Made by a program: the position numbers and the translations under genes
Shown here: positions 3,044-32,215 of the stretch, piece by piece
Numbering within the stretch: position 1 is the stretch's first letter
How the letters are laid out: the number at the start of each line of letters is the position of its first letter
Assembly (NCBI RefSeq): GCF_009936375.1
Contig: NZ_AP022332.1
Location: 62,001 to 126,000, forward strand
Direction: 5' to 3'
Length of the DNA stretch: 64,000 nucleotides
Origin: Methylosinus sp. C49
GTDB lineage: Bacteria > Pseudomonadota > Alphaproteobacteria > Rhizobiales > Beijerinckiaceae
The notes under the pieces: model-generated
The model's database searches: none
Seen by the model: the letters and a program-made list of their open reading frames with translations, nothing else
What the model was told of the DNA's origin: nothing

Positions 3044-6000
3044 CTGCCGCTCTTCCTTCCGGCCTTTTCCAAAAACTCCGCCGCCACTTCCTGCGGCGGC
3101 CCGGAGGGCGGCGGCGCGAGGCCGCGCAGAGCGAGGCGCACTATCGTCGCGGGCGCATCAGCGGGCGCGCGCGCCTCCACAAAATAGCGGCCGCGCTCGA
3201 GACTCAGAATCTGCGCGGCGCCTTCTCGAAGAGTCTTGCCGGCGGCGTCGAGGAGACGCAGCGCGGCGCGATCCGGCTCGGCGCGCAGGCCGAGTCCGAT
3301 CTCGCCCGCCTTCGCCACCTCGAAGGTGAAGAGCGCGGAGCCTGCGGGGCCGAGAGCGATCGGATCATTGACGCCATCCGTCACCGGAACGACCGGCGTC
3401 GTCGCAATGCTCAGCGCGCCGGAGAGCGCGCCGTCATGCGGCGAAAAAATCTCGATGAGCGCGCGGCCGGGCGCGGCGTAGCGATGCAGCTCCACGCCGG
3501 CGGGGAATGTCTCCACCTCGCGCGCGCCATTCTGCGTGAAAGCAAGAATCGCCGGCGCGCTCGTGCGAATGTCGACGACGATGGGCGCGGTCACATCGAG
3601 CGCGAAAGCCTGCGCTTCTCCGCTGAGCGTCGCAGCGAAAGGCGCGCTCACATCGCGCGGCGCGACCGCAGGCCAGGGCGATTTGCCGGCGCGCTCGATC
3701 CACGCGGCGACGAGGCCGGGCGCATGGGCGATGGTCGCCTCGCCGGGACCGGCGAGCGTCAGCGAGCGGCCGCGCAGCACGCGTCCATCGGCGCCGACGA
3801 ACGCCGCCTCTCCACCGGCGATGACGAGCCGATCGCCCGGCTGCGCCTCGACGAGATGCGCTGTCTCGCCGGCGGCGCCGTAGAAGCGCTTGATCGCCCT
3901 TCCCGCCGTGATCGGCTCGTGGCGCTCGGACGAGGATGCGATACGCGCGGGCGCAGGCGCGTCGGTGAGATTGACGAGCCATAGCGCGCGGGCGCCCTCG
4001 AGACGACGCGAGAGCGACGCGCCATCGGCGAAGGCGGCGAAGGCGCGGGGCTCCTCCGGGGCGGAGAAAGCGGCGAGGCCGCTCGCAAGATCGAGCGCCA
4101 GAGCGCCGGCGCCGTCGAAGGTCAGAGGCTGCGCCGTGAGGGGCGGAATGACGCCAGAGAATTGCGCGCCGGCGCGAAGGGGCGCAGCGAGCGCGACATC
4201 GATCGCGCGCGCCGTGAGACGCAGGAATTGCGCGTCGCCGGCGTTCCACAGGCGCGGAGGCTCCTTGCCGGCGAGCGCCAGAGCCGCGCCCGACGCGACG
4301 GCGAAGCCGCGTCCCGCCGAGACGCCGGGCTGGCCAAAGGCCGAGCGCGCGAGCCACAGTCGCGCCTTGCCGGAGGGCGGTGCGGCGGCGGGCAGAATGG
4401 CGCGCTCATTCTCGCCGAGGGTGAGCGGAATTTCAGCGCCGCTGGGCGCGAAGGCGACGACGCGCGACCGCGCGGCGCAATCGTCGCGCGAGAGCAGCCA
4501 CAGGCTCTCCGATTGCGGCGCCAGCGCGCCGGCCGGAGCCGGGGCGAGCATGCGCCCCGCCGCCGAGCCCGCGACGAGCGAGGCCGGCGCGGCGACGATG
4601 GCGACGAGCGCCGAAGCGGGCGCGGCGACGAGGCCGACGCAGATTTTTGTCGCGAGCCCTTCGATCGGCGCCGGCTCCAGCGCTATGTCGCCGAAGCCGC
4701 GCGGCGTGCGCGCCAGGCTGCGCGCGGCGATCGTGACCGGAGCGGCGGCGCCGTCGATGGTCCAGACGCTGGCGCGCCATTCGCCGCTCTCCGCCGGCCA
4801 GGCGGCGACCGGCGCGAGGCCGCGCTCGCGGCCGATGACGCGCCAACGTCCGTCGGCCTCACGCTTCTCGATCGACAGCGCCGTCTCGCGCGTCGATTGC
4901 GCGGCGACGATCATCAGCCGCCCCTCCGGCGCAGCGGGCAGAGCCAGCTCATGCGCGCCGGCGCCGGGGACGGTCTTCACGCCGGCGAATGTCAGCGCCT
5001 CGGCCGGCGCCGAGGCGGGCAGAGCGAGACTCACCTCGACGCCCTCGGGCTCGGCCGGCCCCTCCGTCTCCTGCGCGACCTCCTCGCCTTCCGCAGCGGC
5101 GCCTTCGCCTTCGTCATTCTGCTCCTCGGCGGCGGCCGCGGGTCGCGGCGCGCCCTTCAGCTCATCGAGCCGCAGGCGATAGGCGCCGGCGGGCAGGCGG
5201 CGCGAGAGCGAAACGTTCCAATCTTCCGCGCGGCCCTCCAGCCGCTCGATCACGGCGCCATTCTCGTCCTCGAGCGCGCCGATCAGCTCCTTGTCGCCGA
5301 AGCTCGCAATATCGACGACGCCATCGCGCGCGATGGAGAAAGTCAGAGCGGCGGGCGGATCGACGAAGAGCGGCGCGCCCGGCTGCAATTGCGTCGATGT
5401 GAGCGCGATGTGGTAATCTAGACGATCGTCATGGGCGAGGCTGCGCGCCTCGACGCGATAGGCGCCGGCGGCGAGCTTGCCGGAGAATTTGCGGCCGCCG
5501 GCGAATTTGCCGACGCTCTTGCGCGCCGCGTCGAAAATCTCCGCCACCATGCCATCGCTCACATCCAGCGCAATGTCCGAGTCGCCGGCGAGCGCGAAGC
5601 TCCAGACATCCGGGTCACGCGGCGCGCTTTTGGCGACAGGCTCGCGCCATTGCAGTCTCTGCGGCGCGTCGAAGGGCAAAGCGTGCGGGCCATGGCCCTC
5701 GAGCGGCGCCGGCGTCACGATCCTGCGCAGGCGCGCGACGAAGCGGCCCTCGACATCCTCCGGCAGCACGACGAGGCGATAGCTTCCCTTCTCGAATCGG
5801 CGGGTGAGACGCGTCAGCGGGCCGGGCGCGGCGAGCGGCCAGCCGTCCGCCTCCTCGAGCCGCGCGCGCCATTCCTTGCCGAGCCCGGTGAGATCGAGCC
5901 GATAGACTCCGTCCTCGGGAATATCGATCGGCACCACGGCGCCACGGCCGCCGTCGAGCGCGGCGCGCGCGGCGCCTTCGCCGGAGATGGGCGCCGTCGT

Positions 6001-8199
6001 CGTCATCGCCACGCTTTTCACCGAAAGGCCGAGATGGCCGGCGGATTCGCGCGCGGTGACGGCGGCGCGATAGGCGCCGGCGCGCAAATAGCTCGTCACC
6101 AGCGCATTATGGCCGGGACCATTGTTCTCGCCCTCGCCGAGATGCGGCGCCAGCGCGGCGCCGAGCGTGAGGCGCGTCTGCAATCGGCCCAAGGTCTCGA
6201 CGCGATAGAGGCCGCCTTCGGCCACATCGAAACGAAACTCCCGCGTCTCGTCGCGGGAGAGATCCAGCCAGGCAGGCTTGGCGGCGGAAATCGTCGCGGG
6301 CGGACGCTCCTTCGCCGCCTCGGCGGCGGCCGTCTCCACATCATACGCATAGACGAGGGCGAGCGCGCCCGGCTCCGTTCGCGCCGGCAGACGAATGGTG
6401 GCGAAGCGATTGTCGTTCTCGATCTTTTCTTCCGTGATCTGCGCGGGCGCGCTCGCGCCCTTATCGTCGACGACGAGAATCCTGCCGCCGCGCGGCGTGC
6501 GCACCGGCAGAAGATATTCCGTCGCGGCCGGCCGCCATAAAGGCGCGGCGCCCTTCTCGAGATCGGCCGGCAGAGCGATGACACGCGGACCCGTCAGCAG
6601 GCCCGGCGCGCTATTGGCGAGAATGAAATACGCGGCGCCGCGGTCGAGCCTCTGCTCGCCGAAGGAGATCGCCGCGCGAGCGGGCGAGCGCGCAGGAAGC
6701 TCCGGCGAAAGGCCGGGCGAGCCGAGCGTCACATCCACAATTCCGACGGCGCCCTCCAGCGGCTCGAGCGAGAGGACATAGAAGCCCGCCTGAAGATCAT
6801 AACGGCTCGGCAGGCGGCCATCGGCGCGCGGCGCTGCGGCGCCGAAAGCGGGCTCGATGATCGCGCGCAGGCGCGGGCCTTTCACCGAGATCGCCACCGG
6901 GCCGCTGTCCGTCGCCTCGAACAGCAGAGTGGTCGGCCCACGCAGATTGAACTTGCCGCGATAGGCGCGGCCGCCGCCGACCTTGGGAAGATCCGACGCC
7001 AGCACGCGCGTCTTGCCATTTTCCGTGCGCGCCAGCAGCGCCGTGGCGGGGACCTCGTCGGCGCCCTCGCCGGCGACGTCCATGGCGACGAGATTGGGTC
7101 CTTCCGTTTCGATCGGCGCGCGGCTCGCCCGGCGCAACGCCCGCAGCGAGAACGCCTGCCCCTCGAGGCCGGAGACTTCGATGAGCCCGGCCGCCTTGCC
7201 GTCGCCGCCGAGCGAGACGATCGCGACCGGCTCGCGGCTCGTCTTGTCGATCCCGGCGGACGCCGGAACGCCGGCGCCGCGCCGCGCCTCGAGGCGGGCG
7301 GCGGTCGGCTTGGCCAACTCCAGGCGGAATGTGTCATAGCGCGCCGGCGCCTCGAAACGCGCCGAGCCGAAAGCGCCTATGACGCCGTCGGCGACGCCCG
7401 CGGCCAGAGATGCGGGTTCGAGGAGATGCAGGAGAAACGGCTGCGCCGCGCCGCCCTCCGGCCAGACGATGGGCTCGCCGCCATAGGCGATCGCGACATA
7501 GCGGCCGGGCTCGACCGCGCCTTCCAGCCGCAGCCGCGTCATCTGACGGCCGGGCCGCGTCTCGATCGTCGCGCGCGCCGGCGCAAGATCGACGAGCTCG
7601 CCGCTGGCCTTCCACAGACGCAGATCGCGCAATGCGCGGCCCAGCGCCTCGACGGCGACGCGGCCCGATGCCCCCACCTCGAGCGAATAGCTCCGCTGGA
7701 CGAGATCGCCGAGCTCGGCGGAGAATGTCTTGCCGGGCGCCAGCGCCTCGCGCGCGCCCTGCTCCTGAAACGCCTCGGCGGTGAGGCGCGCCTTGCCGGC
7801 CGCGCCTTTGGCGCCGAAGAGCCGCAGCTTGTAGACGCCGGCGTCGAGCAGAAGATCGAGGCGTCCGTCGCGCTGGCCCGTCGCGCCCGCCGTCTCGCCG
7901 GGGCCGGTTATCATATCGACGAGCCCAATGGCCACGCCCGAGGCGCTATGCGCGGCAATTGCGTAGCGACCGGGCGCCGGAATGGTCAGAAGCGCGAAGC
8001 CGTCGCGATCGGCCGGCAGCTCGCTCGCAGAAAATCGGCCAGGGGCGGCGTGCTGCTCGATGCGGGCCGGCTCCACGCGCGTCTTGGCGGCGGGCGCGGG
8101 CTCCGACGCCGCATAGGAGACGAAGGCGCCGAGCGACAGGCAAGACATGCCGAAAGCGATTGCGATCTTCAAAAGCAAAGCCCCGATCATGCGCAACAT
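3040..8199 (-). CDS. Giant exported protein with repeated beta-sandwich-like modules, partner of alpha-2-macroglobulin
   Basis: A 1,719-residue protein, taking the ATG at 8199 (MLRMIGALLLKIAIAFGMSC...), which has GGAGG just upstream and begins with a hydrophobic export signal. The frame is open 49 codons further upstream, but that part is basic and not signal-like. The body has many segments built around a Gly-x-Tyr strand (PGRYAIA, AGVYKL, PGRYVAIAY, AGFYVL, GGLYRVE, AGAYRA, DGVYRLDL, KGSYRLVV, AGAYRVE, AGAYRLRL, RGRYFVEA). These recall PPC-type repeats of secreted proteins. An acidic Glu/Ala-rich linker lies near residues 1030-1065. I do not recognise a named family. The 4-bp overlap with the alpha-2-macroglobulin gene suggests the two products act together in the periplasm; this is inference. 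Confidence 0.75.
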   Translation of the reverse strand: MLRMIGALLLKIAIAFGMSCLSLGAFVSYAASEPAPAAKTRVEPARIEQHAAPGRFSASELPADRDGFALLTIPAPGRYAIAAHSASGVAIGLVDMITGPGETAGATGQRDGRLDLLLDAGVYKLRLFGAKGAAGKARLTAEAFQEQGAREALAPGKTFSAELGDLVQRSYSLEVGASGRVAVEALGRALRDLRLWKASGELVDLAPARATIETRPGRQMTRLRLEGAVEPGRYVAIAYGGEPIVWPEGGAAQPFLLHLLEPASLAAGVADGVIGAFGSARFEAPARYDTFRLELAKPTAARLEARRGAGVPASAGIDKTSREPVAIVSLGGDGKAAGLIEVSGLEGQAFSLRALRRASRAPIETEGPNLVAMDVAGEGADEVPATALLARTENGKTRVLASDLPKVGGGRAYRGKFNLRGPTTLLFEATDSGPVAISVKGPRLRAIIEPAFGAAAPRADGRLPSRYDLQAGFYVLSLEPLEGAVGIVDVTLGSPGLSPELPARSPARAAISFGEQRLDRGAAYFILANSAPGLLTGPRVIALPADLEKGAAPLWRPAATEYLLPVRTPRGGRILVVDDKGASAPAQITEEKIENDNRFATIRLPARTEPGALALVYAYDVETAAAEAAKERPPATISAAKPAWLDLSRDETREFRFDVAEGGLYRVETLGRLQTRLTLGAALAPHLGEGENNGPGHNALVTSYLRAGAYRAAVTARESAGHLGLSVKSVAMTTTAPISGEGAARAALDGGRGAVVPIDIPEDGVYRLDLTGLGKEWRARLEEADGWPLAAPGPLTRLTRRFEKGSYRLVVLPEDVEGRFVARLRRIVTPAPLEGHGPHALPFDAPQRLQWREPVAKSAPRDPDVWSFALAGDSDIALDVSDGMVAEIFDAARKSVGKFAGGRKFSGKLAAGAYRVEARSLAHDDRLDYHIALTSTQLQPGAPLFVDPPAALTFSIARDGVVDIASFGDKELIGALEDENGAVIERLEGRAEDWNVSLSRRLPAGAYRLRLDELKGAPRPAAAAEEQNDEGEGAAAEGEEVAQETEGPAEPEGVEVSLALPASAPAEALTFAGVKTVPGAGAHELALPAAPEGRLMIVAAQSTRETALSIEKREADGRWRVIGRERGLAPVAAWPAESGEWRASVWTIDGAAAPVTIAARSLARTPRGFGDIALEPAPIEGLATKICVGLVAAPASALVAIVAAPASLVAGSAAGRMLAPAPAGALAPQSESLWLLSRDDCAARSRVVAFAPSGAEIPLTLGENERAILPAAAPPSGKARLWLARSAFGQPGVSAGRGFAVASGAALALAGKEPPRLWNAGDAQFLRLTARAIDVALAAPLRAGAQFSGVIPPLTAQPLTFDGAGALALDLASGLAAFSAPEEPRAFAAFADGASLSRRLEGARALWLVNLTDAPAPARIASSSERHEPITAGRAIKRFYGAAGETAHLVEAQPGDRLVIAGGEAAFVGADGRVLRGRSLTLAGPGEATIAHAPGLVAAWIERAGKSPWPAVAPRDVSAPFAATLSGEAQAFALDVTAPIVVDIRTSAPAILAFTQNGAREVETFPAGVELHRYAAPGRALIEIFSPHDGALSGALSIATTPVVPVTDGVNDPIALGPAGSALFTFEVAKAGEIGLGLRAEPDRAALRLLDAAGKTLREGAAQILSLERGRYFVEARAPADAPATIVRLALRGLAPPPSGPPQEVAAEFLEKAGRKSGR

Positions 8200-17904: not shown

Positions 17905-18986
17905 GCCTGCAATTCGATCCGCTGCTCGCGCGGCCGAGCGAGACGCTCTGCCTCTGCCCACGCATGGGCGAGACCGACGATGCGCCGTCGACGCTGCGGC
18001 TCGCGCTCGGCTTCGGGCTCGGCGTGCTTGCGCAGGCTTTGGCGCTCTCGCAATTGCCGCAGGCGGCGCTGCTCATTGCGCCGCGCGCGGAGGAGATCGG
18101 CTGGCCGCTGGCGCTGATGCTCATCGGCGCGGCGCTCGCCTCTATTCCGGCGGCGCTGCTGGTCGACGGATTCGGACGGCGCGGCGCCTTCGCGCTGGGG
18201 GCCAGCCTCGGCGTCGGCGGCGGGCTGCTCGCCGCCTTCGGCATGACGCGGGGACATTTTCCGGCGCTGTGCCTCGGCGCGCTGTGGCTCGGGCTGGCGC
18301 AGGGCTTCGGCCTCTTCTATCGCCATATAGCGGCCTCCGCTCAGGGCGGAGTGAGCGTGCTGGCGGGCGGCGCGCTCGCCGCGCTGATGGCGCCGCTCGC
18401 GGCGTATTGCGCAGAGCTCGCGGGGGGCGGAGCGTCGACCTTGCTCTGCGCATCGCTGCTGCAGATTTTCGCGCTCGCTCTGGCGGTGCGCGCACCGCAT
18501 GGCTTCGCGCGACCCGGGGATGAAGGAGAGGTAAACGATCACGATTGGTTTACGCTCAGATTCGCGCTGCTGACGCTCGCCGGCGCAGCGGCCTGGGCGA
18601 TCATGGCGGCGGCCATGCTGCGCGGCCCCTTGTCGCTCGCCCTCTGCGGAGCGGCCCAGAGCTTCATCGGCGGAGCGATGGCGTGGCATCTGCTCGCAAT
18701 GTATGGCCCCGCCGCGCTGGCGGCGCGCTGGCCGGCGCTATTTCCTGCGCTGAAGAGCCTCTGCGTCGGTCTCTTCCTTCTGGCTAGCGCTTTCGCGCTG
18801 CTGCGCCTCTCCGCCTCGCCCGCGCTTCTGGCGGCGGGAATGGCGACGATCGGCGCCGCCTGGTCGCTCGCCAATATCGGCGCGCTGCGGTTGTTGCACG
18901 AGAAAGGCCGGCCGCCGCCGGCCGCGCTGGCGCTGCATGATCTCTGCCTGCTCGGCGCGGCTGCTGCGGGCGCGCTGGCGCTCTGA
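17901..18986 (+). CDS. ccoA: MFS transporter with CcoA-type copper motifs, last gene of the cbb3 operon
   Basis: A 361-residue, very hydrophobic protein with ten to twelve membrane segments and MFS character (VDGFGRRGAFALG loop between helices 2 and 3). It overlaps ccoS by 4 bp, so it is expressed with the oxidase genes. In the second half I see M235AAAM239 and, 28 residues later, H263LLAM267. MxxxM and HxxxM pairs in adjacent helices are the copper-binding signature described for CcoA, the MFS copper importer needed for cbb3 oxidase in Rhodobacter. Motif plus operon context make a CcoA function likely. A Cys-rich start (LCLCP, residues 16-20) may also bind metal. Whole-protein identity to known CcoA was not tested. 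Confidence 0.72.
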   Translation: MSLQFDPLLARPSETLCLCPRMGETDDAPSTLRLALGFGLGVLAQALALSQLPQAALLIAPRAEEIGWPLALMLIGAALASIPAALLVDGFGRRGAFALGASLGVGGGLLAAFGMTRGHFPALCLGALWLGLAQGFGLFYRHIAASAQGGVSVLAGGALAALMAPLAAYCAELAGGGASTLLCASLLQIFALALAVRAPHGFARPGDEGEVNDHDWFTLRFALLTLAGAAAWAIMAAAMLRGPLSLALCGAAQSFIGGAMAWHLLAMYGPAALAARWPALFPALKSLCVGLFLLASAFALLRLSASPALLAAGMATIGAAWSLANIGALRLLHEKGRPPPAALALHDLCLLGAAAAGALAL

Positions 18987-19101
18987 CCCGATTTTGCCGC
19001 ATGCTTTTCGCAAATTGCTGAATTCGGCGTAGACTCTCCCACCGGGATGGGCCTGCGCGGCCGGCGCTCGCGCGCTAAATTGCCCGGCGAGGACGAGAAT
19101 T

Positions 19102-21558
19102 ATGAGCTTCTGGCGCAAGAAAGACAGCGACCGCAGCGAGGCTTCGCCCACGCTGGAGGCTCTGGTGCGACGTTCGCTGGCCGCGCTCGCGCTCGAGCGG
19201 CTGGCGCGCGGCGCCGCCGGGCTGGCCACGCTGCTTCTCATTTTCCTTGCGGCCTCCTTCGCCGGCCTCTGGCTCGAGATCGGCGCGAGCGCGCGGGCGC
19301 TCGGCGTCGGCGCTTTCGCGCTGGCGGCTCTGTGGATCGTCGGGCGCGGCCTCGTCGCCGGAGCGCCGCGGCGGCGCGAGGCTCTGGCGCGGCTCGACGC
19401 CTCGCCCGGCGCGGAGCATCGGCCCGCCGCCTCGCTCGAGGACACGCTCGCCGGCGGCGTCGACGATCCGACGACGCGCTCGCTCTGGGCTCTGCATCGC
19501 AGCCGGCTGGAGCGCAAGCTCGCGGCGATAGAGGTGACGCCGCCGGACCCCGGCCTGCCGCAGCGCGATCCTTTCGCTCTGCGCGCGGCCGCTCTGGTCG
19601 CCGCCGTGGCCGCGGCCTTTGTCGCCGGGGCGGATCGCGAGACGCGGCTGCTCTCCGCCTTCGATTGGGAGAGCGGTCCCGCCTCCGCGACGGGGGCGAG
19701 AGTCGACGCCTGGTTCGAGCCGCCCGCCTATACGGGCCGGCCGCCCATCGTGCTGCCGCAGCGCGCCGAAGGGCCTTGGGCGCAGATCTCGGCGCCCGTG
19801 AATTCCACGCTGGTGCTGCGCAGCCTCGGCGCGCGCGGGGCCGCGACCACCAGCGGCGGCCTCGCGCCGATCGAGGGCGGCAAGCAGAAGCAGCCCGGCG
19901 GCGAGGCCGAGGAGCGTTTCAAGCTCGCCGGCGACGCCGCGCTGGCGCTGCGCGGCGCCGGGGAGTTCCGCATTCAGGCGATCCCGGATCGCCCGCCGAC
20001 CATAGAGATCACGCAGCCGCCGCGCAATAATGCGCGCGGCACCATGACGCTCGGCTTTCGCACCGACGATGATTATGGCGTCATCGCCGGCGAGGCGGTC
20101 GCCGCCCTGCCCGGCTCGGCGCGGCCGAGCCGCTCGCTCTATCCGCCGCCGCGCCTCGCTCTGCCCGTGCCGCCGACCCGCGGCGGCCTCGGCGAGGCCA
20201 AGGCGACGCTCGATTTCTCCGACCATCCCTGGGCCGGCGCGCGCGTCGCGCTGACGCTGGTCGCCCACGACGAGGGCGGCAATGACGGCTTCTCCGCGCC
20301 GCTGGACGTCACTCTGCCAGAGCGCCGCTTCGCCAAGCCGCTCGCCCGCGCCCTCGCCGAGCAGCGCCGCAATCTGGCGCTGGACCCCGATCATTCCGCC
20401 CGCGCGCTGACGGCGGTGGACGCTCTGTCACTGGGCTCGGCGCTGTTCGAGACCCCCTCCTCGATCTTTCTGGGGCTGAGCGCCGCCAAGGCGCGGCTGC
20501 AAGCGGCGCGCGACGACGCCGATCTGCGCGAGGTCGCCGATCTTTTGTGGGCCATGGCGCTCTCTCTCGAGGAAGGCGACGTCGCGCAGGCGGAGCGCGA
20601 TCTGCGCGCGGCGCAAAAGGAGCTGCGCGAGGCTTTGGCGCGCGGCGCCAGCGAGGAAGAGATCGCCAAGCTGACGCAGGACATGCGCGCGGCGATGGAA
20701 AAATTCCTGAGCGGTCTCGGCCAGAAGAACGGCGAGAAGGCCGAGCGCTCCGCGCCGCAGCAGGGCGATCAGCGCGTGCTGACGCCGGACGATCTCGAGG
20801 CCATGCTGAGCGAGATCGAGAAGGCCGAGCGCGTTGGCGATCTCGCCGAGGCGCAACGCCTGCTCGACGATCTGCAGGATGTGCTGGAAAATCTTCGCCC
20901 CGCGCAGGCCGGCCGAGCCGACCCTCGCGCGCGGGAAATGTCGCGCGCGCTGGACGAGCTCGACAAGCTCACGCGCGAGGAGCAGCAATTGCGCGACGAG
21001 ACCAATCGCGGCCAGCAATCGGGCGGCGAGCCGCGACGCGGCGGCAAGGGCCAATCCTCTTCCCCCGACGACGCCCGCGGGCGGCAGAAGGCGTTGCGCG
21101 ACCGCCTGGAGCAGGAGCAGGACCGGCTGCGCCGCGCCGGCGAGGCCTCGCCCGATCTCTCCGACGCCGACAAGGCGATGAAAGAGGCCGAGAAGGCGCT
21201 CGGCCCCGGCGGCGAGGGACCCGGCCGCGCCGTGGACGCCCAGGGCCGCGCGCTACAGGCGCTGCGCCGCGGGGCCGACCAGCTCGCCTCCCGCATGCAG
21301 GGCGAGGGAGAAGAAGGCGAGGGGCAGAACGGCCGCACGGGCCGCCGCGCCGGAATGCGCCCCGGCGAGAGCGCCGATCCGCTCGGCCGCCCGGCCGGCC
21401 GCCAGCGCGGCCAGGAGGCCGGCGTCCATTACGATCCGCTCGGCCTGCCGCCGGCCGTGCGCGCCCGCCGCGTCCAGGAGGAGCTGCGCCGCCGTCTCGG
21501 CCAGCCGGAGCGCCCGGCCGAGGAGCTGGATTATTTCGAGCGGCTGCTGCGGCGGTGA
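19102..21558 (+). CDS. DUF4175 / TIGR02302-type membrane protein with low-complexity C-terminus
   Basis: An 818-residue protein. Residues about 20-90 hold two membrane helices, with a third near 155-175. A periplasmic region contains IQAIPDRPPTIEITQPP and DDDYGV. The C-terminal 350 residues are charged and low complexity, first coiled coil (EVADLLWAMALSLEEGDVAQAERDLRAAQKEL region) and then Arg/Gly/Glu-rich. This layout matches the conserved alphaproteobacterial DUF4175 family (TIGR02302), whose function is not known to me. The ATG at 19102 is followed by MSFWRKKDSDRSEASPTLE, typical of family starts. The gene is separated from the cbb3 operon by 115 bases. Confidence 0.8.
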   Translation: MSFWRKKDSDRSEASPTLEALVRRSLAALALERLARGAAGLATLLLIFLAASFAGLWLEIGASARALGVGAFALAALWIVGRGLVAGAPRRREALARLDASPGAEHRPAASLEDTLAGGVDDPTTRSLWALHRSRLERKLAAIEVTPPDPGLPQRDPFALRAAALVAAVAAAFVAGADRETRLLSAFDWESGPASATGARVDAWFEPPAYTGRPPIVLPQRAEGPWAQISAPVNSTLVLRSLGARGAATTSGGLAPIEGGKQKQPGGEAEERFKLAGDAALALRGAGEFRIQAIPDRPPTIEITQPPRNNARGTMTLGFRTDDDYGVIAGEAVAALPGSARPSRSLYPPPRLALPVPPTRGGLGEAKATLDFSDHPWAGARVALTLVAHDEGGNDGFSAPLDVTLPERRFAKPLARALAEQRRNLALDPDHSARALTAVDALSLGSALFETPSSIFLGLSAAKARLQAARDDADLREVADLLWAMALSLEEGDVAQAERDLRAAQKELREALARGASEEEIAKLTQDMRAAMEKFLSGLGQKNGEKAERSAPQQGDQRVLTPDDLEAMLSEIEKAERVGDLAEAQRLLDDLQDVLENLRPAQAGRADPRAREMSRALDELDKLTREEQQLRDETNRGQQSGGEPRRGGKGQSSSPDDARGRQKALRDRLEQEQDRLRRAGEASPDLSDADKAMKEAEKALGPGGEGPGRAVDAQGRALQALRRGADQLASRMQGEGEEGEGQNGRTGRRAGMRPGESADPLGRPAGRQRGQEAGVHYDPLGLPPAVRARRVQEELRRRLGQPERPAEELDYFERLLRR

Positions 21559-21632
21559 AAGACGGGCCCTCGCGCCGCTGACCCACACGACGAGGCGTAT
21601 TCGATCCAGTCGAACTGAGCGCGCACGCCCGT

Positions 21633-22220
21633 TCAGTCGTCCTCCCGCGCACGAAGCGAGGCGGCGTCAACGGCGGCTCGGCGTATCGACTTGCCGATTT
21701 GCTCCGCGAGCCGATTGCTCTTCACAGAACGCGCCAGCGTCAATCCGCCGATCAAAACGCCGAGCACCGACCAGGCGCGAGAGAGTCGCTGCTCCTCGTC
21801 TCCGCCCGGCAAGCCGTCGGCGACGAGGCCTGCGATCTTTTTCATTTTCGTTTCGAAGAGGGCCTTTACCTCGGGTTCCGATCGCGCGACCTCCGGCGAA
21901 AGGGTCGTCATCGCGCAGCCGCATGCGAGATCGTCACGATGGGCCTTGCCGAGATAATAATCGGCGAAGGCCCGCACCCAGTCGGCGCCATGCTCGCTCT
22001 GATACTGCGGAATGGCTCCGATCACCTCGTCGAGCCCCTGCTCCAGCGCATCGCGAAATGCGCCGTCCTTCGAGCCGAAATGAGCGTAAAAAGCTCCCGA
22101 CGTGACGCCCGCCGCCTTGGCGATGGCGTCGACGCCGACCCCCGCAAATCCATGGCTGCGGAAGCTCCGACTTGCCGCATCGCGCATGCGCTCGCGGGTC
22201 TGCTCCTTCTTCGTAGACAT
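21633..22220 (-). CDS. TetR family transcriptional regulator
   Basis: A 195-residue repressor-type regulator. The N-terminal helix-turn-helix (residues about 12-55: TRERMRDAASRSFRSHGFAG, then VGVDAIAKAAGVTSGAFYAHF) is canonical TetR. The C-terminal ligand domain has the pattern often seen in AcrR/YcdC-like members (CGCAMTTLSPEVARSEPEV). It is transcribed divergently from a small secreted protein and a cupin. The shared 182-base region contains three CGATCG-centred operator-like palindromes, so it probably represses itself and the divergent genes. The ligand is unknown. Confidence 0.92.
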   Translation of the reverse strand: MSTKKEQTRERMRDAASRSFRSHGFAGVGVDAIAKAAGVTSGAFYAHFGSKDGAFRDALEQGLDEVIGAIPQYQSEHGADWVRAFADYYLGKAHRDDLACGCAMTTLSPEVARSEPEVKALFETKMKKIAGLVADGLPGGDEEQRLSRAWSVLGVLIGGLTLARSVKSNRLAEQIGKSIRRAAVDAASLRAREDD

Positions 22221-25000: not shown

Positions 25001-25522
25001 TCAGCGCTTGCCGTCGATCCAGCTGGCGAGCTTCATATCGGTCAGCGCGCCGATCTCCGTCACCAGGGACCCATTCGGGGCGACGAGCGCGGTGAAGGGC
25101 AGCTCGCCCTGCCAATGATTGTCGACCTCGAAATAGAGCCGTTCGACGAAACGATCGGCGAAAGCGAAATTGACCGCCTGCATCAGCCCCGCCTTCTCCA
25201 TGCGGGCCAAGGCGCGGCGCCGGTCGCTCTCGGGATCGGCGTTGACGAAGACGAAATCGACGCCCGTCGTCTCACGGGCGAGCTTGCCCCATTCGGCGAG
25301 CTCCGAGACGCAGATGACGCAGGTCACAGACCAGAAATGCACGATGAGCGGACGCCCGGCGTGGGCCTTGCGGATGGCCTCGAAAGAGCCGCGCGCAAAG
25401 GGCGCGATCTCCTGCTTGCGCGCCTCTTGCGCCTGTGTGGCTTGCGGCCCTGCGAATTGCGCCAGGGCGCAGGCGACGAGGCCGGCGGCGGCCAATAGCG
25501 CATTTCTCATCCTCGGCCGCAT
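25001..25522 (-). CDS. Exported thioredoxin-fold (TlpA-like) protein
   Basis: A 173-residue protein with a signal peptide (MRPRMRNALLAAAGLVACAL) and a thioredoxin-like domain. The active-site region reads HFWSVTCVICVSELAEW, so the redox pair is C-V-I-C with Thr, not Trp, before the first cysteine. The cis-Pro region appears as GELPFTALVAPNG. Such periplasmic proteins reduce or transfer disulphides in cytochrome or copper-centre assembly. The AAGGAG site ten bases upstream supports the start at 25522. Confidence 0.85.
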   Translation of the reverse strand: MRPRMRNALLAAAGLVACALAQFAGPQATQAQEARKQEIAPFARGSFEAIRKAHAGRPLIVHFWSVTCVICVSELAEWGKLARETTGVDFVFVNADPESDRRRALARMEKAGLMQAVNFAFADRFVERLYFEVDNHWQGELPFTALVAPNGSLVTEIGALTDMKLASWIDGKR

Positions 25523-25692
25523 ATCCCACGTCTCCTTCTCGCGCCCCTCCTTATTACCTTAGCGGAAATCCGGCGTGGAGGCGAGCGGCGCCCGGCGACG
25601 GCGGAAAGGGGCTGGAGGATTTGCGCCTGTCGCATTGTGTTGTTAAGTCTGGGACCCGCGGCGCGGCGGCGCGCCGACCAACCGATCCGCCC

Positions 25693-27096
25693 ATGTCCGA
25701 CACAGCCGACATTTCGACCGACGCGGCCGCGCGCAAGACCTCGGCCGCCAAAGCCTCGATCGCCGCGAGCGCCGTGCTGACGGTCGCCAAGCTCGCGGCC
25801 GGCCTCGCCTCCGGCTCTCTGGCGCTGATCTCGGAGGCCGGCCATTCGGCCGCCGACGTCGCCGCCACAGTGCTGACCTATGTCGCCGTGCGCCAGGCCG
25901 AGAAGCCGGCGGACGAGAAGCACCATTACGGCCATGGCAAGGTCGAATCGCTCGCCGCGCTGATCGAGACCGGCCTGCTCTTCGGCCTCGCGCTGGTCGT
26001 CGCCGGCCAGGCCGCGCAGCGGCTCGGCGACACGGATGTGGAAATCGACGCCGGCTGGCCCGTCTTCGCCGTGCTGATTCTCTCCATCGTCGTCGATTTC
26101 GCGCGCGCGCGGCGGCTCGGCGCCGTCGCCGAGGAGACGCAGAGCGACGCGCTCGCCGCCGATGCGCTGCATTTCACCAGCGATCTCGTCTCCTCGGCGC
26201 TGGTCATCGTCGGCCTCGCGGCCACGCGCGCGGGCTTTGCGCAGGGCGACGCGCTCGCGGCTTTCGGCGTCGCCGCCTTCATCGCCATCGCCGGCTACAG
26301 GCTCGGGCGCCGCACTGTGGCGACGCTGCTCGACGCCGCGCCGCAGGAGCTGGTGCCGCAAATACAGGACATTCTGCGCGCGACGCCCGGCGTCATAGCG
26401 GTGGAGAGCCTGCGCCTGCGCACCGCCGGCCCCAAGGTGATGGGCGAGGCCGTCATCGGCGTCGCGCGGACGCTGCCGCTGGAGCGCGCCGCGCGCATAA
26501 AGGAAGACGCCAACGCCGCCATCACTGAGGCAATTCCCGGCGCACAGATCACCATCGCCACGCGCCCCATCGCGCTCGACGACGAGACCGTGCTGGAGCG
26601 CATTCTGCTGGTCGCCGCGCGGCGCCGCATACAGGTGCATCACATCATCGCGCAGACGGTGGGCGAGCGCCTCTCCATCACGCTGGATCTCGAGCTCGAC
26701 GGCGGCATGTCGCATGGGCGCGCGCATCAGATCGCCTCGGACCTCGAGCAGGCGATCCGCGAGGAGTTCGGCGAGGCGATCGAGATCGACACGCATATAG
26801 AGCCTTCCGAGCCGCAGCTGCTCACCGGCCAGGACGCAGAGCCGCAGACGCGCCGCGCCATCGCCGACGCGCTCGCGCGTCACGCCGCTCGGGGCGGAAA
26901 GGTGATGAATGTCCACGACGTTCGCGCGCGCGAGACGGGGGAAGGGCTGGTCGTCAATTACCACTGCTGCGTCGACCCGGAGCTCTCCGTCGACGCCACG
27001 CACGCCGCCGTCGACGAGGTGGAGCGGGCGGTGCGCGGCGAATTTCCGAACATCCTTCGAATTGCGGGACATGCGGAAATAAACGATCATTCCTGA
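25693..27096 (+). CDS. Cation diffusion facilitator (CDF) family transporter
   Basis: A 467-residue inner-membrane divalent-metal exporter. The transmembrane part has GHSAADV in helix 2 (HxxxD) and DALHFTSDL in helix 5 (HxxxD), the HD/HD metal site usual for zinc-type CDFs, and the family loop HHYGHGKVES. The C-terminal half is an unusually long cytoplasmic region with the usual CDF dimer domain followed by a second domain-like segment (RIQVHHIIAQTVGERLSITLD onward). The ATG at 25693 is chosen because the upstream open frame is basic and unlike CDF starts. Confidence 0.92.
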   Translation: MSDTADISTDAAARKTSAAKASIAASAVLTVAKLAAGLASGSLALISEAGHSAADVAATVLTYVAVRQAEKPADEKHHYGHGKVESLAALIETGLLFGLALVVAGQAAQRLGDTDVEIDAGWPVFAVLILSIVVDFARARRLGAVAEETQSDALAADALHFTSDLVSSALVIVGLAATRAGFAQGDALAAFGVAAFIAIAGYRLGRRTVATLLDAAPQELVPQIQDILRATPGVIAVESLRLRTAGPKVMGEAVIGVARTLPLERAARIKEDANAAITEAIPGAQITIATRPIALDDETVLERILLVAARRRIQVHHIIAQTVGERLSITLDLELDGGMSHGRAHQIASDLEQAIREEFGEAIEIDTHIEPSEPQLLTGQDAEPQTRRAIADALARHAARGGKVMNVHDVRARETGEGLVVNYHCCVDPELSVDATHAAVDEVERAVRGEFPNILRIAGHAEINDHS

Positions 27097-27198: not shown

Positions 27199-27864
27199 AT
27201 GTCGAACGTCACGGGCAAAGCCTATGGAATGAACGTCATTACGCCGATGAAACCCTGGCGGACCTGGTTCAATCGCTTCAGCTTCATGATCTCGCGGTCG
27301 ATTCCCTCCTCGCTCGGCGGCTTGCTCGGACTCCGCTTCATCCATTTCGCGCGCTGGGCCATCATCAAGCGCGACCAATGGCCCGATCTCGGCCAGGGCA
27401 AGCAGCAGCTCGCCAATGACTATCTGCTGTTCTGCAGCAATTTCAACGGCACATGGGACCAATATATCGACGCCTTCGCCGACGGCCTGCCCAATGGCCT
27501 CGATCTGCTCTGGTTCACGAGCACGAAATATCCCCATTCCGTGCCGATCACGCCGTTCAAGAATTACATTCGCGCCAATCAGATCGACACCAACTACTAT
27601 TACAATTCCGTTCCCGGCGCCGCGCAGCGCGACGTGACGGCCGCCCTGCGCGTGCGCGAGGCGCTGCTGAAGCTCGAGGCGAATCTGCAAGCCTCGACGC
27701 CGGAGCAGTTCCGCGCGCTCTACGTCCGCTATCTCTGCACGGTGCAGAACGACCTCGGCTACGAAGGTCGCGCGCCGGTCGCCAGCAATGATACGGAAAA
27801 CGCCGAGATCAATCGCGAGGACTATCTGCGCTTCGCCGGCGAGCTGGCGACGAGCGCCCGCTGA
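27199..27864 (+). CDS. Unknown protein of the DyP/P450 locus, first gene (221 aa)
   Basis: No family recognised. The soluble 221-residue protein has a core IHFARWAIIKRDQWPDLG, then NDYLLFCSNFNGTWDQYIDAF, then NQIDTNYYYNS. The second gene of this locus carries the same three blocks in the same order, so the two are probably divergent relatives with a shared fold. The block spacing recalls the ferredoxin-like halves of DyP/chlorite-dismutase proteins, but that is only a guess. It is the first of four genes separated by 46, 9 and 22 bases, so it is probably co-expressed with the peroxidase homologue and P450. Confidence 0.75.
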   Translation: MSNVTGKAYGMNVITPMKPWRTWFNRFSFMISRSIPSSLGGLLGLRFIHFARWAIIKRDQWPDLGQGKQQLANDYLLFCSNFNGTWDQYIDAFADGLPNGLDLLWFTSTKYPHSVPITPFKNYIRANQIDTNYYYNSVPGAAQRDVTAALRVREALLKLEANLQASTPEQFRALYVRYLCTVQNDLGYEGRAPVASNDTENAEINREDYLRFAGELATSAR

Positions 27865-27910
27865 CGCATCCGTCCGCAAGACAGAATTCACGTTTTCTAA
27901 AGAGGCCGTC

Positions 27911-28894
27911 ATGCCTACCTTCGATAGCGGAGCCTATTTTCTCACGACGCTCATTCCCATCAGCACGACGACGATCGTCGAGGATGGCGTCCCCACCTCC
28001 CCCGTGCATGCTCTGCGCAAGCATTTGTCGCTGATGCCGCGCGGCGAGAGGAGCCCTTTCGCCACCAACACGACCAATCATTTCGCGCGTCTCGTCGTCA
28101 TCGACGACGTGGACTACAATGGTCGCGAGCAGCCCAACACGCTGCTGGTCGCCGCCAGCCCCGAGCTGCCCATCGACCAGAAATACAAGGACATGCTCAA
28201 TCCGGTGATCGCGCAGCGGCAAGATCACCTCTCTTGTCCTTTCCTGTTCTTCTCCGCCGATTTCGACTCCAAGACGGGCTCGGACGCCGAGCGCGACGCC
28301 TATCTTCGCGATTTGTGGACGCAATCGGAAGGCGAGCTGCGAAAGGTCTTCAAATATTGTCTCGGCTTCGAGGCGCGCGTGCGCGATGCGGCGAGCTTCG
28401 CCAAATATGTCGCCGACTGCCAGATCGAGACGACCATGCCCTTCCATGATTATTGGGCGCATGGCGTGCCGGCCGACAAGCTGCCGAGCGTGGCGCTGAA
28501 GACTGTGGGCCTCGCGGGGCTCGGGATTTTCGCAGTCGCCGCGGCGCTGGTCTATTTCTGGCTGCTGCCGCATTTCCTGCACGGCTTCATCGGCGCGCTG
28601 CTGGCGATCGTCGCCGGCGTCGCCGCCGCGGGCCTCGCGATCTATCTCTACATTCTCGACTTCGGCAAGAAGCCCTTTCCCGCAGCGCCCGACTCCACTT
28701 TGCCGGATGTGCTGAAGGCGCTCTATCTGCGTCGCGAGCTCACGCGCTTCGCCATCGACAATCAAGTCGACGCCGCCGGGACGGATCCGGCTTCGGCGCA
28801 GCGCCTCTATGACGCTTTCAAAGCTTTCATCGACGCCAACAAGCCGGGCGATGTCGAAGGACCGACGCAAAAGCCGGGCGCAATCGGAATCTAG
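27911..28894 (+). CDS. Unknown membrane-anchored protein of the DyP/P450 locus, second gene (327 aa)
   Basis: Residues about 60-190 contain NHFARLVVIDDVDY, then FLFFSADFDSKTG with DAYLRDLW, then CQIETTMPFHDYW, paralleling blocks in the preceding protein. Two hydrophobic helices follow at about 197-245 (ALKTVGLAGLGIFAVAAALV and a second ending in LAIYLYILDFG), so this copy is membrane-anchored. The ATG at 27911 is preceded by aaagagg and gives 327 residues. The start of the DyP gene lies nine bases downstream. I do not recognise a named family; the context suggests a partner or scaffold for the two haem-enzyme homologues. Confidence 0.78.
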   Translation: MPTFDSGAYFLTTLIPISTTTIVEDGVPTSPVHALRKHLSLMPRGERSPFATNTTNHFARLVVIDDVDYNGREQPNTLLVAASPELPIDQKYKDMLNPVIAQRQDHLSCPFLFFSADFDSKTGSDAERDAYLRDLWTQSEGELRKVFKYCLGFEARVRDAASFAKYVADCQIETTMPFHDYWAHGVPADKLPSVALKTVGLAGLGIFAVAAALVYFWLLPHFLHGFIGALLAIVAGVAAAGLAIYLYILDFGKKPFPAAPDSTLPDVLKALYLRRELTRFAIDNQVDAAGTDPASAQRLYDAFKAFIDANKPGDVEGPTQKPGAIGI

Positions 28895-28903
28895 GGGCGG
28901 AAA

Positions 28904-30508
28904 ATGTCAGTCGTTCTCGACCTCGCGGATATTCAGGGCAATATTCTCGAAGCCTATCCCAAGCAGGGCTATTTCAAAGGCCGCACAATTCTGCTGAACA
29001 TCGGCGGCGACTCGAAGACGAGCCGCGCCGCCAATGGCCGCCATTTCGTGACCAAGCTGCTGCCGCGCGTCACTACGGCGCTGGCGGGCGCGAGCGTCGG
29101 CGATGCGGTTCGGCCGCCGGCGGTCGCCGTCAATGTCGCCTTCACCTTCTACGGCCTGCTCATGCTCGGCGTGCCGACGCGCACGCTGCGCGGCCTGCCC
29201 GACGAGTTCATCGACGGCATGGCCGCCCGCGCGCGCATGCTGGGCGATGATTTCAGCGGCGACCATTGGCAAGAGAAATGGGACACTGTCTGGCAGAACA
29301 AGGGCAAGCCGCCGGAGGCCGCGGTCCATATTCTCATCGTGCTCAACCAGCATTATACGGCGAGCGCGGCCGATCTCGACGCGACGACGGATGCGATCGT
29401 CGCCCTCGCCGCGGAGAATGGCGTGAGCGTGCTCGCCGGCCATAATCCGCCCGGCAAGGAGCAGACGCCCTATCAGGATATTACGGCGCTCTTCGACGAG
29501 CACGGCCGGCCGACGCCCAAGGAGCATTTCGGCTTCTCCGACGGCATCAGCGATCCTGTTTTCGAGGGGCAATATCCGGCCGACAGGCTGCAGAGCGCCG
29601 CGATCGGCCAGGGCGCCGTCGATGGCAATGGCGTGTGGCGCGCGCTGGCGGCCGGCGAGTTCCTGCTCGGCTATCCCGACGAGGCGCAGGAGATTCCCGG
29701 CGCCGCCATGCCGCTCGCCTTCAGCCGTAACGGCACATTCATGGCCTATCGCAAGCTGCATGAGAATGTCGGCGCCTGGCGCAAGTTCATCGGCGAGCAG
29801 GCGGAGAAATTCGCCGCCTTCCGCGGCGTTCCGGTGGATGTGGCGCGCGAGACTCTGCTCGCCAAAATGGCCGGCCGCTGGTCGGACGGCGTGCCGCTGA
29901 TGAAGGCGAAAGACTACGCCGAATGGCAGGCCTTCAACGAGAAGTTCCCGGAAGGCTCGCCGGAGCGCGAGCGCGAGCTCGTGGACTTTACCTATCGCAA
30001 GGATATCGACGGCGAGCAATGTCCGATGACATCGCATACGCGCCGCGTGAACACGCGCGACGGGCTCGACCCTTGGGTGCAGACGGATCCGAAGCAGGCG
30101 TCGGGCTCTGTTCTCAATAATCGCCGCCGCATCCTGCGCCGCGGCCTGCCCTATGGCTCCTCCGGCCCGGAGGCGACGGATGACGGCGATCACGGCATTG
30201 TGATGCTGGTCGTCTGCTCGAGCCTCGCCCGCCAATTCGAATTCGTGCAGCAGCAATGGATTCATTACGGCCTCGACGCCAATGCGGGCAATGACACCTG
30301 CCCCATCGTCGGCAATCATTCGCAGGGCGACGCCCGCAACGGCCCCAAGGCGAAATTCGTGGTGCCGTCGGAGCAGGACTCGGGCAAGCCGCCTTATATC
30401 GCCGAAGGTCTGCCGCAATTCGTGGAGACGCGCGGCGGCGAATATTTCTTCGTGCCGAGCCTCACCGCTCTGCGCATGATCGGCATGGGCACGGTCGATC
30501 CGACCTGA
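28904..30508 (+). CDS. DyP-type peroxidase homologue lacking the usual axial-histidine position
   Basis: A 534-residue relative of dye-decolourising peroxidases. The GxxDG signature is intact as G210FSDG214 in HFGFSDGISDP, and the C-terminal RILRRGLPYG and VVCSSLARQFEFVQQQW blocks are typical. In family members the first block is normally preceded by the haem-ligating histidine (H-x-I-[IL]-R-x-G-x-P-Y-G). Here the aligned residue is Arg408 (NNRRRILRRG), read directly from the codons. The axial ligand may therefore be missing or supplied elsewhere. There is no obvious export signal. It follows two unknown genes and precedes a P450 by 22 bases. Confidence 0.88.
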   Translation: MSVVLDLADIQGNILEAYPKQGYFKGRTILLNIGGDSKTSRAANGRHFVTKLLPRVTTALAGASVGDAVRPPAVAVNVAFTFYGLLMLGVPTRTLRGLPDEFIDGMAARARMLGDDFSGDHWQEKWDTVWQNKGKPPEAAVHILIVLNQHYTASAADLDATTDAIVALAAENGVSVLAGHNPPGKEQTPYQDITALFDEHGRPTPKEHFGFSDGISDPVFEGQYPADRLQSAAIGQGAVDGNGVWRALAAGEFLLGYPDEAQEIPGAAMPLAFSRNGTFMAYRKLHENVGAWRKFIGEQAEKFAAFRGVPVDVARETLLAKMAGRWSDGVPLMKAKDYAEWQAFNEKFPEGSPERERELVDFTYRKDIDGEQCPMTSHTRRVNTRDGLDPWVQTDPKQASGSVLNNRRRILRRGLPYGSSGPEATDDGDHGIVMLVVCSSLARQFEFVQQQWIHYGLDANAGNDTCPIVGNHSQGDARNGPKAKFVVPSEQDSGKPPYIAEGLPQFVETRGGEYFFVPSLTALRMIGMGTVDPT

Positions 30509-30530
30509 CGACCCCAGCGGGAAAAAGACG

Positions 30531-31883
30531 ATGACCTTGTTGAAGAACATCTTCGCCACGCTGCGCGCCTATGCGCTGACGCTCCTCGACGCGGTTGTCG
30601 CCCTTTTCTCGCTGATCGCGGTGACGGCGCGCGCGCTCGTCGCCGGCGAGGGAACGCTGAAGGAGCGTCTGGTCGGCGCGCTCACGCGGCCGAGCTCACT
30701 GATCGCGATCTGCGCGATCTTCCGCGCCGTGGCGCCCAATCTCGTGATCGGCAAGCGGCTGATCACCAGCTACGACAATAATGGCACGGCCTTCGTCCTG
30801 CGCGCCACGGATGTGATCGAGGTGCTCGACCGCGAGGAGGATTTCGCCGTCGTCTACGAGCCGAAGATGCGCGCCATCACCGGCGGCCCCAATTTCTTCC
30901 TCGGCATGCAGAACACGGCGCAATATCAGCACGACACCTCGCTGATGAAGCTCGCCATGCGCCGCGACGATGTCGAGGCTCTGGTGACGCCGCTCGCCCG
31001 CGCCCGCGCCGAGGCCTATGCGAGCGCCTTCCCCAAGCGCATCGACCTGCCGCAGGAGCTGACGCTGCGCGTCCCGGCAGCGATCGTCTCCGACTATTTC
31101 GGCGTCTCCGCCCAGGCCGAAACCGACGCCATCCAATGGGCGACGAGCTTGTTCTGGTGGCTGTTCGTCGATCTCAAAGGCGAGCCGGCGATCGAGACCA
31201 AGGCGCTGATGGCCGCGGACGAGCTACGCAAGGCGATCGACGCCGCCATCGCCGCGCGCAAGGCCAGCGGCGAGACGAAAGACGATGTGCTCGGCCGCGC
31301 GCTCGAGCTGCAGAAGGGCGCGCCGGAATTCGACGATCTCGCCATTCGCAACAATCTCATCGGCCTCGTCATCGGCGCGATCCCGACCATTTCCAAAGCC
31401 TCGGTGCAGGCGCTCGACCAATTGCTCGATCGGCCTGAGGCGCTCGCCGGCGCCCAGGCCGCGGCCGTAGCCGGCGACGAGGCGCTGCTCGGCGCCTATC
31501 TCTTCGAGGCGCTGCGCTTCAACCCGGTCAATCCCGTCATCTACCGCCGCGCCAACCGCTCGACGGTGATCGCCGCCAACACCTTCCGCGCCCGCAAGAT
31601 CCCGGAGGGGGCCATGGTGCTCGCCGCCAATCTCTCGGCCATGTTCGATCCGCTGCAGATCGACAAGCCCAATGAGTTTCGCGTCGATCGTCCCTGGGGC
31701 AATTACATCCTCTGGGGCTATGGCATGCACACTTGCTTCGGCGCCTATATCAACCGCGCCGTCATCCCGGCCATTCTGCGCCCCGTGCTGGCGCGGCCCA
31801 ATCTGCGCCGCGCGGCCGGCGCGGCGGGCCAAATCGACGTCTCGACGCCCTTCCCGCAGCATTTCGTGGTAGAGAGCGACTGA
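30531..31883 (+). CDS. Cytochrome P450 with unusual I-helix motif
   Basis: A 450-residue haem-thiolate protein. The haem-binding loop WGYGMHTCFG (Cys402) matches FxxGxxxCxG with Trp for Phe, and the K-helix ExxR is E326ALR329. In the I-helix, where most monooxygenases have [AG]Gx[DE]T, this protein has G282AIPT286, so the acidic residue used in oxygen activation is replaced by Pro285. That is seen in P450s that use peroxides or rearrange hydroperoxides rather than O2. An N-terminal hydrophobic stretch (about 12-40) may anchor it. No ferredoxin or reductase gene is nearby. It closes the four-gene locus. Confidence 0.9.
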   Translation: MTLLKNIFATLRAYALTLLDAVVALFSLIAVTARALVAGEGTLKERLVGALTRPSSLIAICAIFRAVAPNLVIGKRLITSYDNNGTAFVLRATDVIEVLDREEDFAVVYEPKMRAITGGPNFFLGMQNTAQYQHDTSLMKLAMRRDDVEALVTPLARARAEAYASAFPKRIDLPQELTLRVPAAIVSDYFGVSAQAETDAIQWATSLFWWLFVDLKGEPAIETKALMAADELRKAIDAAIAARKASGETKDDVLGRALELQKGAPEFDDLAIRNNLIGLVIGAIPTISKASVQALDQLLDRPEALAGAQAAAVAGDEALLGAYLFEALRFNPVNPVIYRRANRSTVIAANTFRARKIPEGAMVLAANLSAMFDPLQIDKPNEFRVDRPWGNYILWGYGMHTCFGAYINRAVIPAILRPVLARPNLRRAAGAAGQIDVSTPFPQHFVVESD

Positions 31884-31966: not shown

Positions 31967-32215
31967 GTGTCCGACGCCAACGCCGATATAGACGCCCTGC
32001 CCTTCGAGAAGGCGATTCAGGAGCTCGAGGAGATCGTCGGCAAGCTCGAGAAGGCGAGCGTCTCGCTCGACGATTCGGTGAAGCTCTATGAGCGCGGCGA
32101 GGCGCTGAAGAAGCGCTGCGACACGCTGTTGCGCGAGGCCGAGGCCCGCATAGAGAAGATCACGCTCGGCGCCGATGGCGCGCCCAAGGGGACGGCGCCG
32201 CTCGACGTCGAGTGA
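31967..32215 (+). CDS. xseB: Exodeoxyribonuclease VII small subunit
   Basis: An 82-residue helical protein with the XseB pattern (LPFEKAIQELEEIVGKLEKA, then SLDDSVKLYERGEALKKRCD). It partners XseA, not in this window, to degrade single-stranded DNA. The start is GTG at 31967 (GTG TCC GAC GCC AAC), as no ATG is available near the family N-terminus. It is convergent with the efflux membrane-fusion gene, six bases away. Confidence 0.94.
   Translation: MSDANADIDALPFEKAIQELEEIVGKLEKASVSLDDSVKLYERGEALKKRCDTLLREAEARIEKITLGADGAPKGTAPLDVE

Follow-up and report, generated by a model that had tools for sequence, protein, structure and literature searches.

A peroxidase-P450 gene unit of Methylosinus sp. 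C49 and its relatives as a candidate system for organic hydroperoxide chemistry

We analyzed a stretch of 64,000 nucleotides from the alphaproteobacterium Methylosinus sp. C49 (contig NZ_AP022332.1, positions 62,001 to 126,000; hereafter the window) and focused on a unit of four packed genes, A-B-DyP-P450, at positions 27199-31883 of its + strand. They encode protein A (221 amino acids, P0001, 27199-27864), protein B (327 amino acids, P0002, 27911-28894), a DyP-type haem peroxidase (534 amino acids, P0003, 28904-30508), and a cytochrome P450 (450 amino acids, P0004, 30531-31883), and are separated by 46, 9, and 22 bases. The coordinates, strand, and gaps given by an earlier reading of this DNA, made without database searches (the sequence-only reading), were all confirmed. 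We propose that the unit may act at the membrane in the chemistry of organic, most likely lipid, hydroperoxides, by analogy with the fungal Ppo enzymes and the coral pairs of lipoxygenase and catalase-related protein, a proposal that we regard as possible, if somewhat short of an even chance. The analogy with known peroxidase-P450 pairs and the membrane association make a lipid the most likely substrate. With B and A keeping it at the membrane, the DyP would use peroxide to oxidize an unsaturated lipid-like substrate to a hydroperoxide or, alternatively, would handle such a hydroperoxide. The P450, which lacks the usual acid of its I helix, would then take the hydroperoxide directly and rearrange or cleave it, needing neither O2 nor a redox partner. 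The sequence-only reading had already suggested a peroxidase-P450 pathway driven by peroxide or hydroperoxide. This idea gains from gene fusions, from loci where a catalase-related protein stands in for the P450, and from sister P450s lying beside cyclooxygenase (COX)-like or RoxA-like proteins, whereas the argument that it drew from a variant DyP did not survive.

The unit is found well beyond its genus. A scan of genomes of named species confirmed 289 relatives of A, and the best 80 of these 289 were retained as loci (numbered with the letter L). The order A-B-DyP-P450, on whose conservation the sequence-only reading had made its case depend, is kept in 53 of the 80, one of which (L029) has only a fragment of the P450. 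Two more have the P450 reversed, 21 consist of A-B-DyP, three of A-B, and one of A only. The loci come from Methylosinus, Methylocystis, Methylobacterium, roseobacters, sphingomonads, Caulobacter, Nitrosomonas, and gammaproteobacteria. When a profile of A was run against 398 genomes of the phylum, 27 of them matched. In a set of 100 genomes (numbered with the letter G), gene A was present in 12, including that of the window and 6 of the 9 others of its genus; G074 and G095 have weak matches only. The complete four-gene order was read in five further genomes of the same genus and in one genome that belongs to another family, and further cases are truncated where contigs end. Some genomes appear in both sets, once by handle and once by name (G005/L026, G001/L027, G096/L074, G083/L088, and more). 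The A gene of Rhodobacteraceae bacterium HTCC2150 (L091:6973-7593) is interrupted by one in-frame stop within the part that matched.

Fusions tie the components together further. We found seven single-frame P450-DyP fusions of 1410-1544 amino acids, with lengths counted from stop to stop, and the A domain was detected in six of them (L136-L140, 1410-1542 amino acids, and L199, 1505 amino acids); the seventh (L143, 1544 amino acids) has no A match. L165 also has P450 and DyP in one frame. The protein WP_011907039 of Novosphingobium aromaticivorans plasmid pNL2 (1443 amino acids) is another such fusion, and that of Pararhizobium qamdonense matches the L136 query at 53% identity over a single unbroken alignment that covers 99% of it. 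In distant relatives, the A domain lies within a single chain, ahead of the DyP part. No B match was reported in the fused chains, whose B-like part was seen by eye only, as was that of L018; in L147 and L154 the B and A matches share one frame that adjoins the DyP frame. The gene order in distant genomes and the single-frame fusions, rather than a numerical model of adjacency, show that the grouping of these genes exceeds chance. A separate frame of 1599 amino acids (L142:356-5152) has a DyP domain in the middle of the chain (337-821), together with a weak match to A.

The P450 is recognized by PF00067 (E 3e-8, 33.3 bits over a cut-off of 22.8 bits) and by alignment with solved P450s, and its best matches in the PDB are ordinary bacterial P450s. 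Across an alignment of 62 proteins, which, like that of 87 DyPs used below, includes the window protein and near-duplicates, it keeps the ExxR motif (Glu326 and Arg329, 31506-31517) and the haem thiolate ligand Cys402 in GxHxCxG (31734-31736), both in 62 of 62. Most P450s use an acid of the I helix when activating O2. The acid-alcohol pair of O2-dependent monooxygenases is absent here: in Pro285-Thr286 (GAIPT, 31383-31388) proline takes the place of the acid and the alcohol is kept, again in 62 of 62. In the alignment with the solved P450 3wvs (AGHETT), Pro285 is matched by Glu and Thr286 by Thr. The replacement of the acid noted by the sequence-only reading is thus well founded, though the solved P450 7ayx also aligns a Pro there. 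The same reading saw no redox-partner gene nearby, which holds for 2Fe-2S ferredoxins of PF00111, with no match in the window against 10 in the rest of the genome; that search did not extend to flavodoxins, 4Fe-4S ferredoxins, or reductases.

The place of the P450 can be taken by another haem protein. Among 114 distinct DyP frames, including one fragment (the second L016 frame), the partner is a P450 in 76, a catalase-related protein in 10, and a RoxA-like protein in 1, and 27 have none. A P450 and a catalase-related protein were found together in 0 of the 114. Partners were sought within 4 kilobases for P450s and 3.5 kilobases for DyPs, only identical sequences were removed, P450 segments under 250 amino acids or 60 bits were dropped, and the catalase-related model was built from two sequences. 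In L150 the DyP and catalase-related parts occupy one frame of 911 amino acids. The catalase-related proteins keep the proximal RxxxY motif in 11 of 11, and that of L018 has no sequence match in the PDB at E 1. P450 and catalase-related folds are both described as acting on fatty-acid hydroperoxides (PMC10813956, PMC5617202, PMC13049297), and the exchange of one for the other supports a shared function in hydroperoxide chemistry.

A sister clade of P450s, with around 33% identity to the window P450, has Glu-Thr at the pair, and its neighbors differ. All 76 distinct P450s beside a DyP lack the acid (Pro-Thr in 71, Pro-Gln in 3, Pro-Val in 1, and Ala-Thr in 1), and all 7 beside a COX-like (2) or RoxA-like (5) protein have Glu-Thr; three P450s for which no partner was found, two with Glu-Thr and one with Pro-Thr, complete the 86 distinct sequences. 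In plasmids of Sinorhizobium medicae (L161:7857-10774) and Rhizobium etli (L162:7851-10753), the P450 lies directly upstream of a COX-like peroxidase (PF03098). The best solved match of the S. medicae COX-like protein is prostaglandin G/H synthase 2 (E 4.6e-53), and the region of the catalytic Tyr385 is kept (LYHWHPL vs LYRWHSL). Other Glu-Thr P450s adjoin RoxA-like di-haem c-type proteins in L164, L189, L190, L191, L194, and L198, with PF21419 in 6 loci; the P450 of L190 is absent from the partner table, presumably merged with that of L163. Since COX-like proteins, RoxA-like proteins, and the DyP module share a place beside one P450 lineage, the formation of an organic hydroperoxide and its rearrangement would be their simplest common function. 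A single clade of DyP-partnered P450s was rejected by the approximately unbiased test (p-AU 0.002), with the long-branched L144 placed beside the Glu form. The same arrangement of genes is seen in L144 (9313-10917), with Ala-Thr at the pair, and L145 (9403-11253), with Pro-Val; the P450s of both are highly divergent. Near the P450/RoxA-like pair of L194 there is a frame (3839-4666) that looks tyrosinase-like by eye.

The identity of the DyP is clear from PF20628 (23.6 bits, over the 20-bit cut-off) and from the nearest solved chain, 8re3 (E 1.8e-37), with TIGR01413 (E 1.4e-25, score 90.3) below its cut-off of 100.5 and PF21105 (27.3) just under its cut-off of 27.5. In the DyP of Deinococcus (DrDyP), His324 is the crystallographic axial haem ligand, and the GXXDG Asp189 and the distal Arg348 have been named (PMC10820274). 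We aligned the window DyP with the solved DrDyP (8RE2/8RE3), counting by hand with an offset of 18 fixed by Asp189 being chain residue 171. His378 of the window protein, within CPMTSH (30035-30037), is aligned with residue 306 of the 8RE2 chain, that is, His324, and Arg412 (30137-30139) falls on Arg348. Both, along with the distal Asp213 of GXXDG (29540-29542), are kept in 87 of 87 DyPs, as is Arg409; the last Gly of GXXDG is Gly in 76 and Ala in 11. The sequence-only reading had put Arg408 (30125-30127) at the axial position and called the enzyme noncanonical. This fails: Arg408, which is Arg in 84 of 87 proteins and His in 3, aligns with a His of DrDyP that is not a haem ligand, which may explain the misassignment. 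Since its predicted axial histidine is His378 and its distal arginine Arg412, the DyP looks canonical at the haem, and we rejected the idea of a haem-ligand variant given these invariant residues and the DrDyP alignment. Another axial histidine joined to normal peroxidase activity had been named as evidence against the sequence-only reading; this objection applies in part, as the alignment places another histidine at the axial position. The window DyP is longer than the solved chains (534 vs 442-445 amino acids), and its gene stands together with those of A, B, and a haem partner.

A and B may hold the unit at the membrane. A, a small protein with the motif HFARW...LFCSNFNG, has no match in Pfam or NCBIfam, and B, with HFARLVVID, has insignificant ones only. 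The sequence-only reading took them for two related proteins, and a comparison by hhalign agrees (probability 96.9, E 1.6e-10). A sequence relationship of B to the DyP was rejected by the same method (probability 0.4). The start of B at 27911 coincides with the onset of conservation in the family. Its AlphaFold2 model has a predicted local distance difference test (pLDDT) score of 83.3 and shows an alpha+beta domain, two hydrophobic helices, and a helical tail, with no structural match in the PDB under E 0.001; that of A is poor (pLDDT 62.9). The hydrophobic region of B (residues 193-252, 28487-28666), detected on the Kyte-Doolittle scale and modeled as helices 193-218 and 222-252, is likely a membrane hairpin, and such a stretch is present in 76 of 77 B proteins. 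The predicted helices and hydrophobic stretches suggest that B likely sits at the membrane. By its hydrophobicity, the N-terminus of the P450 (residues 7-40, 30549-30650) is a possible anchor, present in 29 of the 35 orthologues that align from their start.

Several observations weigh against hydroperoxide chemistry by this unit. We know of no DyP that dioxygenates lipids. Among solved P450s the best match is 7ayx (CYP113A1, an O2-using hydroxylase), which aligns AGYLPA with a Pro at the place of Pro285 and a two-residue gap beside it; hence, Pro285 alone does not prove the use of peroxide. In a tree of 40 representative P450s, the Glu form needs one change, so that the match between the pair and the type of partner amounts to one evolutionary event, retained since then, and not many. 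A P450 was not detected in the 21 A-B-DyP loci, some of which lie at contig ends, and the one-contig genome G018 has A-B-DyP and no member of this P450 family at E 1e-10. The Thr-His pair that the title of a cited reference presents as the hallmark of catalase relatives acting on fatty-acid hydroperoxides is not seen in the catalase-related proteins. None of the 11 has Thr before the distal-His position; that position, fixed by alignment of L151 with catalase, is occupied by His in 6 proteins, by Asn in 4, and by Gln in 1. The Pfam catalase model passes its cut-off in 2 of the 8 proteins scanned (L151 and L146) and is weak in a third. Judging from these residues, some of them are unlikely to be catalases, and they do not carry the mark of the hydroperoxide-specific relatives either. 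The RoxA-like proteins may be closer kin of the 10S-dioxygenase (10S-DOX) or of rubber oxygenase. In L141 (4388-8137), A-DyP is followed by a RoxA-like gene with matches in two frames, possibly frameshifted or broken; if its product makes a hydroperoxide, the DyP would act after it. The surroundings of the unit vary by lineage, and no substrate-specific gene is linked to it.

The unit shares features with several known systems. Like it, the fungal Ppo or linoleate diol synthases unite a P450 with a domain of the haem peroxidase type in a single chain or unit, and they have an HxC-type Cys loop like that of the window P450 (PMC9579011, PMC13049297). Their dioxygenase is COX-like (An_peroxidase) and N-terminal, whereas here it has a DyP fold, comes with A and B, and is C-terminal when fused; PF03098 has no match in the four window proteins. 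The COX-like/P450 neighbors of Sinorhizobium and Rhizobium are a nearer match to Ppo, in a two-gene form. The coral and cyanobacterial pairs of a lipoxygenase or DOX with a catalase-related allene oxide synthase or hydroperoxide lyase resemble the catalase-related variants in joining a hydroperoxide former and a catalase-fold haem protein (PMC5617202, PMC13049297), and the partner of the cyanobacterial 10S-DOX is a catalase-related lyase (PMC13049297). These pairs differ from ours in their lipoxygenase, as of 20 genomes scanned with PF00305, 19 of them carrying A and DyP, one gave a match and the unit itself none; they also differ in that the catalase-related proteins here have no Thr-His, and some of them not even the distal His. 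Given this frequency, a lipoxygenase outside the unit is not a general source of hydroperoxide. In Pseudomonas, PA2077 is a fatty-acid 10S-dioxygenase that has been compared with RoxA, and PA2077/PA2078 (10S-DOX/7,10-diol synthase) are a bacterial two-gene system of haem-peroxidase-like fatty-acid oxygenation, as proposed here, with RoxA-like kin adjoining our sister P450s (PMC4496055). Unlike the unit, these are di-haem c-type proteins, and the excerpted text of that source mentions no DyP or P450 partner.

Two other P450 groups deserve comparison. The CYP152 enzymes are H2O2-driven peroxygenases with Arg-Pro in place of the acid-alcohol pair, and they resemble the window P450 in having an I helix unlike that of monooxygenases and, if our proposal is right, in using peroxide. 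The CYP74 clan is marked by an I-helix groove, an ERR triad, and a long Cys loop. The GxHxCxG loop and the Pro-Thr motif set the window P450 apart from both groups, going by their descriptions and not by sequence comparison. The CYP74 clan, including a hydroperoxide lyase of Methylobacterium nodulans, uses hydroperoxides and also has an I helix unlike that of monooxygenases (PMC10813956).

A bolder version of the proposal is that A-B-DyP is a bacterial lipid dioxygenase whose DyP-fold enzyme was recruited to form lipid hydroperoxides at the membrane, and that the P450, which in rhizobia and certain others is fused to it, turned into an isomerase or lyase of hydroperoxides as its acid changed to Pro. 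This would be a further independent origin of a dioxygenase-P450 oxylipin synthase, with the catalase-related protein as an interchangeable second enzyme. We consider it rather doubtful.

Detoxification is an unlikely alternative of another kind, in which the membrane DyP would reduce H2O2 or lipid peroxides arising from damage, and the P450 or the catalase-related protein would clear the remainder. The peroxidase-like haem site of the DyP, the occurrence of a catalase-related partner, and the near absence of lipoxygenase from the genomes searched all fit such a role. However, the distal His is missing in 5 of the 11 catalase-related partners, the single-frame P450-DyP fusion suggests the channelling of a product more than scavenging, and the known relatives of the COX-like and RoxA-like partners of the sister P450s make oxygenated lipids.

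The tailoring of a non-lipid compound is quite unlikely. The P450 would then be an H2O2-driven peroxygenase, and the DyP would activate or couple an aromatic or terpenoid substrate. The loss of the acid is compatible with the use of H2O2, as in CYP152, yet Thr286 is kept, unlike in the Arg-Pro of those enzymes. Also in favor of tailoring, DyPs are named for the degradation of bulky dyes (PMC4420034). Against this, biosynthetic genes do not travel with the unit. We clustered the flanking frames of L026-L105 and the window (7 kilobases per side, top 45 clusters) and found no consistent true neighbor. The largest clusters (65, 35, and 15 loci) overlap the unit on the opposite strand or in a different frame, judging by position, and the next comprise 9 loci (an ABC transporter ATPase, by eye) and then at most 6. 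We therefore rejected the idea that the unit is a portion of a larger biosynthetic cluster. In the window, its neighbors are a cation-efflux gene (25507-27096) and xseB (31967-32215), which are not part of it since none recurs consistently around it.

Least likely, and in our view improbable, is an ordinary monooxygenase served by a ferredoxin encoded elsewhere, with a neutral Pro and a DyP that supplies or removes an intermediate: the Pro of 7ayx, the 10 PF00111 matches in the genome, and the kept Thr286 agree with it, but the Pro is invariant while the sister clade has Glu, the window has no PF00111 match, and the fusions tie the P450 to a peroxidase, with no reductase model reported for the fused L136 protein.

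The DyP and P450 families and the fungal peroxidase-P450 pairs are already known. In the open-access literature searched, we found at the level of titles and abstracts no description of this unit or of close kin, be it the DyP-based pair with A and B, the fusions, or the interchangeable partner. Bacterial oxylipin-type chemistry is little mapped. If the hydroperoxide proposal is true, methanotrophs, rhizobia, sphingomonads, roseobacters, and nitrosomonads would have in this unit a testable source of lipid signals or aldehydes; DyPs, which often have no clear natural role, would gain a physiological partner, and P450s free of redox partners would be on offer. The Glu/Pro difference, which tracks the type of partner, makes a switch from O2 to hydroperoxide testable by mutation. 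It has been proposed that the P450 fusion partners of fungi may go back to an ancient P450 of bacteria that had been joined to a peroxidase-COX ancestor (PMC13049297), and the COX-like/P450 neighbors of Rhizobium and Sinorhizobium are natural candidates for comparison.

The source genome has three P450s (PF00067) and one DyP (TIGR01413), which adjoins one of these P450s. Elsewhere in the window, positions 4001-8000 and 18001-22000 exceed 71% G+C and have long overlapping frames on both strands, and the AT skew is -0.26 at 18001-20000.

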